Part shown: in pieces, positions 31,616 to 36,463 of the stretch | How the letters are laid out: every line of letters starts with the position of its first letter | Position numbering within the stretch: the first letter of the stretch is position 1 | From: Rhodobacterales bacterium HTCC2255 | GTDB taxonomy: Bacteria; Pseudomonadota; Alphaproteobacteria; Rhodobacterales; Rhodobacteraceae | Direction of reading: 5' to 3' | Assembly: GCA_000153745.1 (NCBI GenBank) | Contig: DS022282.1 | Location: 664,027-728,026 of the forward strand | Length of the DNA: 64,000 bases | The notes under the pieces: model-generated | The model's database searches: none | What the model was told of the DNA's origin: nothing | The model's input: only the letters and a program-made list of their open reading frames with translations | Position numbers and translations under genes: made by a program

Positions 31616-32599
31616 ATGAAAATTCGAAAACTTGGCAATGAGGGTTTAAATGTGAGTGCTATTGGCTTTGGCGCAATGAGTATTACTGGCTTTTTCGGAC
31701 CTACAGACGACAAAACATCTCAAAAGTGCCTAGCCAGCGCATACGATAATGGGATTGATTTTTTTGATACGGCAGATGTTTATGGATCTGGGTCATCTGA
31801 AAAATTAATTGGTCAGTTTTTAAAAGAAACAAAAGCAAAAATAAAAATTGCAACTAAATCAGGAATTCAAACTGAACCTATTAGGCAATTTAACAATTCA
31901 AATGAATATTTATCTGACTCACTTGATAAATCATTGCATAGATTGGGTGTTGATTACGTAGATTTATTTTACATTCATCGCCGTGAAGCTAGCCGCCCAA
32001 TTGAAGAAGTAGTAGAAACTTTAACTGGGTTTATCAAATCTGGAAAAATTGGAGGCTATGGCCTATCTGAAGTTTCTCCAACGACCCTTCGAAGAGCCCA
32101 TAAGATTCATCCATGCATGGCAGTACAAAACGAATATTCGCTTTGGTCAAGACTGCCAGATCTAGGCTTGATTAGAACTTGTGCAGAATTGAATGTTTCA
32201 TTTGTTCCTTTTTCTCCATTAGGTAGGGGAATGCTAACAGATCAACCTGCAAAACGAGAAAATATGGCATCACCAGATCTGCGAATTAACAATCCTCGTT
32301 TTATGGAACCAAACCTATCAGATAATTTAGCCATACTAAAAGATTTTAGATCTTGGGCATCAGATAATAAAATGACAACTGCAACTGCAGCACTAGCCTG
32401 GGTCTTAAACAGAGGACAACACCTTATCCCAATCCCTGCAACACGAACAAGTGAACATTTAATGGAATGGGTGAATGCATCAGAAATTACATTATCCCAA
32501 GATCAATTAAATGAGATTGAGACTATACTTCCAATTGGATGGGCTTATGGCGATCGATATTCAGTTAGCCAATATGTTGGGCCAGAAACATATTGTTAA
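31616..32599 (+). CDS. Aldo/keto reductase
   Basis: 327 aa TIM-barrel reductase. The catalytic set is visible: Asp and Tyr in FFDTADVYGSGSSEKLIG, Lys in IATKSG and His in FYIHRREA. The C-terminal NADPH region ends with IPIPATRTSEHL. It resembles the YajO/AKR13-like group; the natural aldehyde is unknown. Ribosome site AAAGGAG is 9 nt upstream. Its stop shares a TTAA with the convergent downstream gene. Confidence 0.85.
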   Translation: MKIRKLGNEGLNVSAIGFGAMSITGFFGPTDDKTSQKCLASAYDNGIDFFDTADVYGSGSSEKLIGQFLKETKAKIKIATKSGIQTEPIRQFNNSNEYLSDSLDKSLHRLGVDYVDLFYIHRREASRPIEEVVETLTGFIKSGKIGGYGLSEVSPTTLRRAHKIHPCMAVQNEYSLWSRLPDLGLIRTCAELNVSFVPFSPLGRGMLTDQPAKRENMASPDLRINNPRFMEPNLSDNLAILKDFRSWASDNKMTTATAALAWVLNRGQHLIPIPATRTSEHLMEWVNASEITLSQDQLNEIETILPIGWAYGDRYSVSQYVGPETYC

Positions 32600-33342
32600 T
32601 TTTTTTCTATCAATTGTATCGTTATTAAATTCGTTAAGTTCTCAGATTTTGTAAGTAATTCTCCACATGCTTTTGGTCCTAATTCAGTAGAAACTTGGCA
32701 ATAATTATACGCCCCCATATCTAAATTTATTACCATATCAGGATCAAGCATAGACTTAATTTCAGTTGCAGCCTCATATAAAGTTGAGGCTGTTTTAGTT
32801 TGATAGACTCCCCAAACTGATTTTTTAATAAAAAACATCCTCCTTATAAATCGTCGTGCATTATCAACATCGTATAAGTCTAGATTACCATCTAGTATTA
32901 ATAAGTGAGATTGTATCATGCTCCAACCTTTTGATTGCGCAAGTTTAACAAACTTTACCCGTTCATTTTTTATAGTTAAATCAAAATTTTTATCCCATAA
33001 TTTAATATTATTAGCACTAAATATATAAGGAATACCTTTTGGTGATACTAAGAAAACACCATCCCACCTTTGGAAGCGGTTACTTACAAGTCGAGCTCCA
33101 TCAAAGGCGAGGCCTTCAACACCAAATCTATCTCCACTTGAATAAGCACCAGTTACCGAAAGTAAATTATTTGTATCGTAAGATAATTCTAAAGGATGAA
33201 ATTCCAAAGCAATAACAGCTTGTTTATCACAACTATTAAATAAAATATTCTCAAGAGTTATTTCACAATCCTGTGCACGGATTAATGTTGGAACACTGAA
33301 TATAAATAAGCATGTAATAAATGTAGATATCAAGCGAGACAT
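32596..33342 (-). CDS. Secreted protein, divergent phosphodiester glycosidase (NAGPA)-like
   Basis: About 248 aa. A signal peptide is visible (MSRLISTFITCLFIFSVPTL, cleavage after IRA-Q). The later pattern, with NRFQRWDGVFLVSPKG, then SHLLILDG, RRMFFIKKSVWGVYQ, ATEIKSMLDPDMVINLD and MGAYNYC, resembles the NAGPA-type phosphodiester glycosidase domain (PF09992), whose end normally reads NLDGGGSS. Here the glycine run is replaced by DMGAYNY. The match is by eye and weak, and activity is uncertain. A TTG nine codons upstream is an alternative start. Confidence 0.5.
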   Translation of the reverse strand: MSRLISTFITCLFIFSVPTLIRAQDCEITLENILFNSCDKQAVIALEFHPLELSYDTNNLLSVTGAYSSGDRFGVEGLAFDGARLVSNRFQRWDGVFLVSPKGIPYIFSANNIKLWDKNFDLTIKNERVKFVKLAQSKGWSMIQSHLLILDGNLDLYDVDNARRFIRRMFFIKKSVWGVYQTKTASTLYEAATEIKSMLDPDMVINLDMGAYNYCQVSTELGPKACGELLTKSENLTNLITIQLIEKN

Positions 33343-33456
33343 AGTTTTAAAAATAAGCACTATGAACAAACAGTCAATCTTATTAAATAATGACTAATAG
33401 AGTTAATCAAAAAATTTAAAGTAATTAAACTATAACTATATAAATAATCTTATTAT

Positions 33457-34236
33457 TTATATAGTTCTTTCAACCATCTTCTTTTTAATTTCAGCGATTG
33501 CTTTAGCAGGGTTTAATCCTTTGGGACACGTTTTTGCACAATTCATGATTGTATGACATCTATAGAGTTTGAAAGGATCCTGAAGTTCATCAAGTCTTTC
33601 GCCTGTAGCTTCGTCACGTGAATCTATAATCCATCTATATGCATGAAGTAGTGCCGCTGGCCCTAAATATCTGTCTCCGTTCCACCAATAAGATGGACAA
33701 GACGTTGAACAACATGCACACATCACACACTCATATAAACCATCTAATTTTTTACGATCTTCAATAGATTGTCGCCATTCAGTAGCAGGTTTATTCGTCT
33801 TAGTTTCTAGCCAAGGCATAATTGAAGCATGCTGTGCATAAAAATGCGTTAAATCAGGAATTAGATCTTTTATAACTTCCATATGTGGCAATGGATAAAT
33901 CTTCACATCGCCTTTTATCTCATCTAAGCCATAAATACATGCAAGAGTATTGATACCATCAACGTTCATAGCACATGAGCCACAAATACCTTCACGGCAC
34001 GAGCGTCTAAACGTAAGAGTTGGATCTACTTCACTTTTTATTTTAACAAGTGCATCCAATACCATTGGACCACATTTATCCATGTCTAAAAAATATGTGT
34101 CTAGAGATGGATTTTCACCTGTGTCGGGGTTCCATCTGTATATCTTAAAAGCGCGTATATTTGTTGCACCTTCCGGCTTTGGCCATGTTTTACCAACTGT
34201 CATTCTAGAATTTTTAGGGAGTGTAAGTTCAACCAT
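33457..34236 (-). CDS. sdhB: Succinate dehydrogenase iron-sulfur subunit
   Basis: 259 aa. The three clusters are clear: [2Fe-2S] cysteines in [12 protein letters not shown], then [16 protein letters not shown] and [17 protein letters not shown] for the [4Fe-4S] and [3Fe-4S] centres. It passes electrons from the SdhA flavin to the membrane quinone site in complex II. Unusually it is separated from sdhA by about 400 bp that hold a separate small lipoprotein gene and a promoter-like sequence, so part of its transcription may be independent. Confidence 0.96.
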
Positions 34237-34328: not shown

Positions 34329-34445
34329 TTAAAGTTTGCTAGACGCTGAGTCTGTTGTTACAGCAGTATTTGCAGCTTGATCTGCCGCACATGCTGTTAA
34401 TGTGAGTGCTACTGCTATGATTGCACTGATTTTCAAAACGTTCAT
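34329..34445 (-). CDS. Small lipoprotein (38 aa) between sdhA and sdhB
   Basis: A short reading frame: MNVLKISAIIAVALTLTAC then AADQAANTAVTTDSASSKL. It has a basic start, a hydrophobic core and the lipobox LTAC, so the mature lipoprotein would begin at Cys19 with only about 20 Ala/Thr/Ser-rich residues. The ribosome site GGAAGGAT lies 5 nt before the ATG, one of the best in the window. A promoter-like TTGGCA-16-TATTAA lies 44-71 bp upstream. The function is unknown; entericidin-like peptides have a similar layout. Confidence 0.75.
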   Translation of the reverse strand: MNVLKISAIIAVALTLTACAADQAANTAVTTDSASSKL

Positions 34446-34488
34446 TTTGTATCCTTCCTTGGTTACCTTCGCAAATTTATTTTGCTTG

Positions 34489-34516
34489 TTAATATATTAT
34501 TCTTTTTTTCTGCCAA
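34489..34516 (-). promoter_or_regulatory. Probable promoter for small lipoprotein (and sdhB)
   Basis: Minus-strand TTGGCA (34511-34516) and TATTAA (34489-34494) with 16 bp between. It lies in the gap after sdhA, so the lipoprotein and perhaps sdhB can be transcribed apart from sdhCDA. A small hairpin, GCAAA/TTTGC, follows in the leader. Confidence 0.45.
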
Positions 34517-34642
34517 TGACAGTTTTATTTATATTTTTTTATCTACCACTAGCGTTTTAATTCTTCAACTCATTTAGTTTAGTCATATATCCAGTGATTA
34601 TAATCTTATATCAGGCCATGCAAAACCAAAATACTTTGAATA

Positions 34643-36463
34643 CTAATAAACTCGCGCTTTTGGTGCAATTTTCTTCATATCAATCCCACCCTCTTCAATG
34701 CTTGTTAGTGGCTCAAGATGTACATTTCTATATGATATATCTACTTTTTCGTTGTCAACTCTACACAGCGTGTGCTTTCGCCAGTTAATATCGTCACGTT
34801 CAGCATAGTCTTCATGAGCATGTGCACCTCGACTTTCTTTGCGAGCTTCAGCACCAACAATTGTTGCTAATGCATTAGGCATCAAATTAGTTAACTCCAA
34901 CGTTTCCATTAAGTCAGAATTCCATATTAACGAACGGTCTGTAACATTCAAATCTGCAACTTTTTTAGCGACTTCAACCATTTTATCAACACCTTCAGAA
35001 AGTGTTTCATTTGTGCGGAAAACTGCAGCATCAGCTTGCATATTTTTTTGCATTTCAAGTCTTAACTCTGCAGTTGGCACAGAGCCATTAGCATGCCTGA
35101 TCCCATCAAAACGTGCCATTGATTTCTCAACAGATTTTTCATTCAGGGGTTCATTGGAGGTGTTAGGGTCTACTACTTTTGCTGCTCTGATAGCCGCAGC
35201 GCGACCAAATACAACTAAATCAATTAGGCTATTAGAACCAAGTCGATTTGCACCATGAACAGAAGCACAACCAGCTTCCCCAACAGCCATTAAGCCAGGT
35301 AAAATTTTATCATGATCACCATCTGTTGGATCTAAGACTTCACCCCAATAATTTGTTGGAATTCCACCCATATTATAATGGACTGTAGGCAATACAGGAA
35401 TAGGTTCTTTATTAACGTCCACCCCAGCGAATATTTTTGCACTTTCTGAAATCCCAGGCAATCTTTCTGCAAGTGTTTCAGGGGGTAAATGATTTAAATG
35501 TAAATGTATATGATCTCCATCTGGTCCTATGCCCCTACCTTCTCGAATTTCCATGGTCATACAGCGTGAAACAACATCTCGAGATGCTAAATCTTTATAT
35601 GTAGGAGCATAGCGCTCCATAAATCGTTCACCTTCTGAATTTGTTAAGTAACCACCTTCTCCACGTGCTCCTTCAGTTATCAAACATCCTGAGCCATAAA
35701 TTCCAGTCGGATGGAATTGTACAAATTCCATATCCTGTAGTGCTAAACCTTGACGCGCAACCATACCACCACCATCTCCTGTGCAAGTATGAGCTGATGT
35801 AGCACTGAAATATGCTCTACCATATCCTCCAGTAGCCAATACAACCATTTTGGCGTTAAATCTATGGATTGTTCCATCATCTAACTTCCAAGCAATAATA
35901 CCTTGGCACCTGCCATCTTCGGTCATGATTAGATCTGTAGCAAAGTATTCGATGTAAAATTCAGCGTTATGTTTTAATGATTGGCCATACAAAGTATGTA
36001 AAATTGCATGCCCAGTTCTATCTGCGGCTGCACACGTTCTTTGAACAGACGGGCCTTCACCAAATTGTGTTGTATGTCCACCGAACGGCCTTTGGTAAAT
36101 CTTTCCTTCTTCTGTTCTGGAGAATGGAACTCCATAATGCTCTAATTCATAAACAGCCTTTGGTGCTTCTCTGACCAAATATTCCATTGCATCAGTATCA
36201 CCCAACCAATCAGATCCTTTAACAGTGTCATACATATGCCACTGCCAATGATCATTAGGAGATGTACCTACGTCCATATTTGCTAATGAAGCAGCAATTC
36301 CACCTTGAGCAGCAACTGTGTGCGAGCGAGTTGGAAACACTTTAGACACACAGGCTGTTTTTAAACCTTGTTCTGCCATACCCAAGGTAGCCCTCAATCC
36401 AGCACCCCCAGCACCAACAACGACTACGTCATATTCATGGTCTATGTATTCATATGATGACAT
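34643..36463 (-). CDS. sdhA: Succinate dehydrogenase flavoprotein subunit
   Basis: 606 aa. FAD motif GAGGAGLRA near residue 17, the covalent-FAD histidine in [10 protein letters not shown] near 48, active-site [21 protein letters not shown] and the C-terminal [14 protein letters not shown] segment are all canonical. It oxidises succinate to fumarate in complex II. It begins 14 bp after sdhD in a sdhC-sdhD-sdhA transcript. Confidence 0.97.

Follow-up and report, generated by a model that had tools for sequence, protein, structure and literature searches.

A 38-residue lipoprotein gene between sdhA and sdhB and its probable place in a mini-lipoprotein family of the Rhodobacteraceae

Introduction

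Why does a gene for a lipoprotein of 38 residues stand between sdhA and sdhB, and is its product tied to complex II? The question is raised by a 64-kb stretch of DNA (hereafter the window) from Rhodobacterales bacterium HTCC2255, whose genome of 2.30 Mb (G000 in our set) belongs to the Amylibacter group of the Rhodobacteraceae and whose SdhB is 97% identical to that of an uncultured Amylibacter, 93% to that of A. marinus and 92% to that of A. ulvae. A preliminary description of the window had proposed the gene, with a good ribosome site, a promoter-like sequence of its own and a downstream hairpin, had taken it to split a usually contiguous operon, and had pointed to an envelope peptide co-expressed with complex II. 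In the literature searched, no title or abstract opening deals with a lipoprotein encoded at the sdhA–sdhB or the pccB–pccA junction. The Rhodobacteraceae are a large family of mostly marine bacteria, and an unnamed tiny lipoprotein is found across it. If borne out, the reading developed here would add a candidate to the core envelope components of an abundant bacterial family, one easily missed by automatic annotation, and would warn against inferring function from operon position.

Results

A small gene under purifying selection

The gene is separated from the upstream sdhA by 197 nt and from the downstream sdhB by 92 nt (Table 1), its lipobox marks off a mature chain of 20 residues, and no other window frame of 200 aa or less passes our lipoprotein filter (basic start, hydrophobic core and lipobox). 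The frame is kept at the same place in four close genomes, with identities of 89% (G171), 92% (G169), 73% (G170) and 78% (G172), and remoter forms in the sdhA–sdhB gap of G176 and G150 are 39% and 26% identical to the window protein. Across the five close genomes (these four and G000), 11, 8 and 27 columns vary at the first, second and third codon positions, and within codons 1–19 the corresponding counts are 2, 1 and 12. Pairwise dN/dS for the ten pairs of these five genomes is 0.08–0.45, a rough range, dS being above 1 for some pairs. The parts that stay stable are the signal peptide and the terminal SSKL, and the middle of the mature peptide drifts. Chance does not account for the frame: four close genomes keep it, third positions vary most and dN/dS falls in this range. 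The preliminary description had named two outcomes that would speak against the gene, the lack of a conserved frame and equal synonymous and non-synonymous rates; the gene survives both, and the frame is that of a genuine gene under purifying selection.

No Pfam or NCBIfam model matches the window protein above its cut-off. Comparison of the protein with phages, and of the gap DNA with plasmids, gave no match. Downstream of sdhB, at 32596-33369(-), lies a 257-aa frame with a hydrophobic start and no Pfam match at E 0.01.

Table 1 Features in and around the sdhA–sdhB junction of the window
Feature	Position	Strand	Remarks
sdhA, upstream neighbour of the mini-lipoprotein gene	34643..36463	(-)	Pfam
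Sigma-70-like site TTTGCA-16-TATAAT	34597..34624	(-)	10/12 consensus; not conserved
Conserved leader/promoter block, 95 nt	34446..34540	(-)	G000 and G170 identical at 75/94
Invariant 16-nt run TATAAATAAAACTGTC	34518..34533	(-)	five close genomes
Inverted repeat GCAAAATAAATTTGC in the leader	34471..34485	(-)	z -2.81 for the 55-nt leader
Shine-Dalgarno sequence AAGGAAGGA	34452..34460	(-)	6 nt before ATG; AAGGAA kept in five close genomes
Mini-lipoprotein gene	34329..34445	(-)	38 codons MNVLKISAIIAVALTLTACAADQAANTAVTTDSASSKL; lipobox LTAC; mature peptide CAADQAANTAVTTDSASSKL; conserved frame, dN/dS
Hairpin 3' of the mini-lipoprotein stop codon	34279..34308	(-)	10 bp, no T run; z -4.19
sdhB, downstream neighbour of the mini-lipoprotein gene	33457..34236	(-)	Pfam

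The sdhA–sdhB junction as a home of small lipoprotein genes

Of 110 loci surveyed (L029-L138), 101 could be measured, which gave 97 distinct gaps from a sample of best SdhB matches and genus members that is not random; the nine loci without a measurable gap are L044, L045, L046, L050, L051, L054, L056, L057 and L094. The distinct gaps comprise 19 of at most 100 bp, none of which holds an extra gene, 20 of 101–500 bp, 46 of 501–1500 bp and 12 that are longer. The search of these gaps for frames with a lipobox, which the preliminary description had proposed, found lipoprotein-like frames in 56 of the 78 distinct gaps above 100 bp, and the idea of a usually contiguous operon does not hold in this family. 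The sdhA–sdhB junction of the Rhodobacteraceae is thus a regular home of small lipoprotein genes.

Some of the other occupants are larger. One cluster of gap proteins of 91–146 aa comprises 64 frames in 45 loci, and two representatives have no Pfam match at E 0.1. Some long gap frames resemble sulfotransferases by eye, despite the fact that a regular expression for the sulfotransferase motif found 0 matches in the gaps. In G120 and G179, a 121-aa protein is encoded right after sdhA (L002:1249-1614(-); the same gene in L035 and L038), and its first 38 residues resemble the mini-lipoprotein before a second domain follows.

Related mini-lipoproteins beside pccB/pccA and ribH

Built from the seven sdh-gap peptides, profile A1 matches short frames outside the gap in several genomes of the genus (E 1.3e-4 to 0.03). 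These frames sit in the cluster of pccB and pccA, which Pfam identifies in G000 as a carboxyl transferase and a biotin carboxylase with the propionyl-CoA carboxylase BT domain. Some of the matches extend down to the C-terminus, and many weak ones in Rhodobacteraceae cover mainly the signal peptide. A profile of five pcc-cluster proteins (A2) matches 104 of 295 Rhodobacteraceae genomes at E 0.001, and one of 32 pcc-type proteins (A5) matches 212 of the 295 at the same threshold, the latter being a count of genomes with a match, wherever it lies. Among the A2-matched loci that were read, pccA or pccB lies within ~3 kb in 24 of 30, and most located copies of the ~40-aa lipoprotein adjoin pccB/pccA. 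Two sdh-gap copies are recovered by A2 as well, that of G150 (E 1.4e-4) and that of G176 (E 0.0018). In G120 and G179, a 44-aa copy lies beside ribH (lumazine synthase).

The search of the genus with a combined profile (A6), built with the window protein among its members and so in-sample for it, gave a single short copy in each of 28 out of 33 genomes: 19 at pcc, seven in the sdhA–sdhB gap and two beside ribH. Eighteen of the 19 pcc-placed copies have pccA or pccB in the stretch read, and in G164 the copy shares a contig with pccA, which follows it at a distance of ~2.3 kb. The sole form in G165 is longer, ~105 aa, and stands close to mdh and a 2-oxoglutarate dehydrogenase gene. Among the four remaining genomes, which are 71–81% complete, G154, G155 and G163 gave no A6 match and G174 only a weak match, within a frame of 201 residues. 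With completeness of 90% or more and contamination of 5% or less as limits, 22 genus genomes remain, and every one has an A6 match, the long form of G165 counted. Further A6 matches in the genus (E 7.8e-5 and weaker) fall in open frames of at least 93 residues.

The mature chains of the pcc-type copies have 21–28 residues. Four of our 43 pcc-type sequences come from loci in which no pcc gene was seen: L198 (two), L200 and L216. Of 32 pcc-type members scanned one by one, two had a hit, to LPAM_1 in one case and to a flagellar L-ring model in the other; one pcc-type protein compared with plasmids had no match. Neither Pfam nor NCBIfam has a family for these ~40-aa lipoproteins with a lysine near the C-terminus.

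Conserved leader and hairpin

The good ribosome site of the preliminary description is confirmed by a Shine-Dalgarno sequence whose core is retained in the five close genomes (Table 1). It lies within a block of 95 nt in which G000 agrees with G172 at 73 of 94 positions, and identity is lower in the frame itself (78/114 with G170 and 81/111 with G172). Further upstream, 29 of 58 (G170) and 32 of 61 (G172) aligned positions agree. Sites like the inverted repeat in the leader are above chance in the window only weakly. As for the promoter-like sequence, a sigma-70-like site exists, and the proximal 95-nt block is conserved, but the site itself lies near sdhA outside this block and is not retained in relatives. 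Such sites are rarer in the region than in shuffled sequence (5 against a mean of 14.9). Since it is not conserved, the site offers no functional evidence, and we rejected it as a promoter.

The downstream hairpin is borne out. None of 200 shuffles folds as well, and all ten pairs are kept in all five close sequences, against 26–58% of cells in slid controls. Five of the pairs are invariant, five vary on one side and none on both; the same pair counts come out of 500 shuffles, and covariation therefore lends no support over and above the pairing that is kept. We rejected the hairpin as a repeat element, as its exact pattern occurs at a single place in the genome, and as an intrinsic terminator at sdh, as it has no T run toward sdhB and is not among the four terminator-like sites of the region.

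Similar structures follow the related genes. Counting as strong any hairpin whose stem has 7 bp or more, four or more of them G-C, within 60 nt after the stop codon, we found one in 51 of 55 distinct regions downstream of copies (pcc, sdh gap and ribH), near relatives among which are not independent, compared with 20 of 84 controls (pccB 5/28, the next gene after the pcc-placed lipoprotein 3/19, sdhA 12/37). All seven sdh-gap copies have one. Folding z falls below -2 for 39 of the 55 copies (sdh 7/7, pcc-type 30/46, ribH 2/2) compared with four of the 84 controls. The stems differ in sequence between lineages. The hairpins of most copies lack a T run, which is present at the ribH copies and in G150, and we therefore read them as protectors of mRNA 3' ends or as processing borders rather than as terminators. 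The hairpin of the window is probably of this kind, judging from its sequence. The gene thus appears to change its neighbourhood yet keep a hairpin after its stop codon.

Does the window gene belong to the pcc-type family?

We consider it likely that the window gene is a member of the pcc-type mini-lipoprotein family. The seven sdh-gap genomes group on the sdhB tree (support 86/70; 100/99 for six of them), and no genome of the genus was seen to carry both a short sdh-gap copy and a short pcc copy. In six sdh-gap genomes (the G169 junction not included), pccB and pccA are adjacent, with ~12 nt between the matches and no lipoprotein. The pccA N-terminus of the window clade is only 68–74% identical to that of lipoprotein-bearing pcc clusters, which suggests a replaced pcc operon. 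The compact pccB-pccA pair was seen in L272, L274, L275, L276, L277 and L279. Intermediate forms link the two places: the mature part of the G150 sdh-gap copy scores 21.2 bits with the pcc-type profile (0 of 200 shuffles as high), and the ribH copy 14.6 bits (0 of 1000). The ribH copy scores 7.9 bits against the window peptide (0 of 1000 shuffles, 2 of 145 other lipoproteins as high); its match to G170, G172, G150 and G176 is weak or absent, with 26 to 601 of 1000 shuffles as high. The order of genes inside the gap differs between G150 and G176. A lysine followed by a hydrophobic residue at the C-terminus, a motif chosen after inspection, occurs in 43 of 43 pcc-type and seven of seven sdh-gap proteins and in none of 152 other lipoproteins. 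That comparison set held longer relatives of the family, and the removal of seven of them by pattern left the 145 used here.

The principal rival is that an unrelated short lipoprotein arose or was acquired in the sdhA–sdhB gap of this clade, and that the likeness is one of similar lipoprotein signal peptides. In its favour, the pcc-type profile gives no more than background scores to the mature peptides of the five close genomes (-1.7 to 1.2 bits, 23–73 of 145 other lipoproteins as high), and many weak family matches of A1 lie mainly in the signal peptide, as noted above. The window mature peptide by itself goes unrecognised by this profile (-1.7 bits, 73 of 145 as high), and adding the intermediates to the profile brought no better recognition of the close genomes' mature peptides. 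Scored over its whole length of 38 aa, the window protein attains 16.1 bits (10 of 145 as high) and that of G172 only 8.4 bits (69 of 145), and A5 finds no match in G000 at E 0.001. Against it stand the clearly pcc-type sdh-gap copy of G150, the grouping of the seven genomes on the sdhB tree, the lack of any genome seen with short copies at both places, and the agreement of the hairpin and the C-terminal KL with the pcc type. On balance we regard an unrelated origin as unlikely, though it is the alternative that survives best.

The window gene shares with the family a short mature chain, a C-terminal lysine with a hydrophobic residue and a strong hairpin, and signal cleavage and lipidation are predicted; a mature-peptide profile match and the pccB/pccA place are missing, and place varies within the family between pcc, the sdh gap and ribH. 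Its membership rests on place, intermediates and C-terminus, and we file it as a probable, not a certain, member because the pcc-type profile misses its mature peptide.

Discussion

The explanation that we favour, with some reserve, is that the window gene is the Amylibacter-clade form of a Rhodobacteraceae-wide mini-lipoprotein which has been relocated, is separately expressed and is independent of complex II. It would encode an exported, lipid-anchored peptide of 20 residues. The commonest place of this mini-lipoprotein, single-copy in most genomes of the genus, would be beside or between pccB and pccA; in an ancestor of the clade, the gene may have come into the permissive sdhA–sdhB gap, with loss of the pcc place. 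There it would form an expression unit of its own, with the conserved leader, the Shine-Dalgarno sequence and a hairpin that probably protects or delimits the mRNA, and we propose from these three elements that it is expressed at a level independent of the enzyme subunit encoded downstream. The product would probably act, apart from complex II, at the cell envelope, with its lipid anchor and the lysine motif near its C-terminus as the working parts. The most economical reading of the sequences is that of an envelope peptide needed in its own right and in an amount that may differ from its neighbours' products. The position beside a respiratory enzyme is probably incidental, because the family usually sits elsewhere in the genome.

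The alternative of a factor tied to complex II, acting in the assembly, stability or regulation of succinate dehydrogenase, can point to a location inside the sdh operon in seven genomes and to a gap that houses other small lipoproteins in many Rhodobacteraceae. The special link to complex II in the preliminary description nevertheless loses its ground, since 21 of the 28 short copies found in the genus stand elsewhere, at pcc or ribH; the 19 gaps of at most 100 bp do without an extra gene, and leader and hairpin suggest separate expression. We hold such a factor to be very unlikely. It is just as hard to credit, and if anything harder, that the gene is what shortening has left of a longer gap lipoprotein, of the kind that G120 and G179 have in their 121-aa protein: the G120 protein does match the window protein (44%, E 0.004) and the combined profile A6 (E 2.3e-4), but both genomes carry the separate copy beside ribH, and selection on the 38-aa frame reaches through the last residues SSKL, which argues against decay. 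That the locus is a leader peptide or structured RNA controlling sdhB, with the peptide secondary, is scarcely credible, for all that it lies just before sdhB with a hairpin between, as the amino-acid sequence including the lipobox is selected and gene and hairpin also occur before pccA-side genes and facing ribH.

On the relocated mini-lipoprotein reading, several known systems offer comparisons. In the Rhodobacter puf operon, an intercistronic hairpin has a stabilising role; like the window hairpin, it lacks a T run and lies inside an operon after a short gene, but the genes differ, and for the window hairpin such a role is a proposed one. Lpp has a lysine near its C-terminus and a hairpin after its gene, and in Lpp/OprI the C-terminal lysine is covalently linked to peptidoglycan. 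The Lpp/OprI alanine-zipper family (NF040598) is the best NCBIfam hit of the window protein, below threshold at 18 bits against a cut-off of 43; both are small lipoproteins with a lysine near the C-terminus, but the window mature chain has 20 residues and no alanine zipper, and its lysine is not the last residue. The LPS translocon maturation lipoprotein LptM (NF047847) likewise has a very short functional lipoprotein N-terminus, but it scores 11.7 bits against a cut-off of 27.7, the match being the signal peptide only (residues 5-19). The conserved lysine suggests a contact or covalent site. One could go further and picture a miniature Lpp, an abundant lipid-anchored extended chain of 20–28 residues coupled to the cell wall through the lysine of its C-terminal region; we rate this elaboration as improbable. 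If it were true, it would mean that the Rhodobacteraceae have a very short outer-membrane tether whose hairpin-delimited gene moves between operons of central metabolism.

Other small or formerly uncharacterised lipoproteins are on record. They include entericidin-type small lipoproteins of ~50 aa in Alphaproteobacteria, one of them linked to outer membrane vesicles and Atu8019 of Agrobacterium among them (PMC10117765), and DalA, a divisome-associated, peptidoglycan-binding outer membrane lipoprotein of ~18 kDa in Rhodobacterales (PMC10470522). No entericidin model is among the window protein's Pfam hits (E up to 1) or NCBIfam hits (E up to 10). DalA, from the same order, was likewise a formerly uncharacterised lipoprotein important for the envelope, a likeness of description (PMC10470522).

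Further variants were seen around the family. L198 (G207) holds two tandem copies, of 43 and 38 aa, and the 3 kb read there contain neither pccA nor pccB. Longer lipoproteins of ~100–125 aa (L191, L196, L202, L214, L233, L243 and L153) share the same short acidic start stretch and an EPVYNKLG-like motif and then continue, and some of them stand beside a short copy. In the pcc cluster, a gene for a protein of ~115–127 aa with the start MIKHRGFP accompanies the lipoprotein (L268:810-1157(+)); it has no Pfam match at E 0.001.
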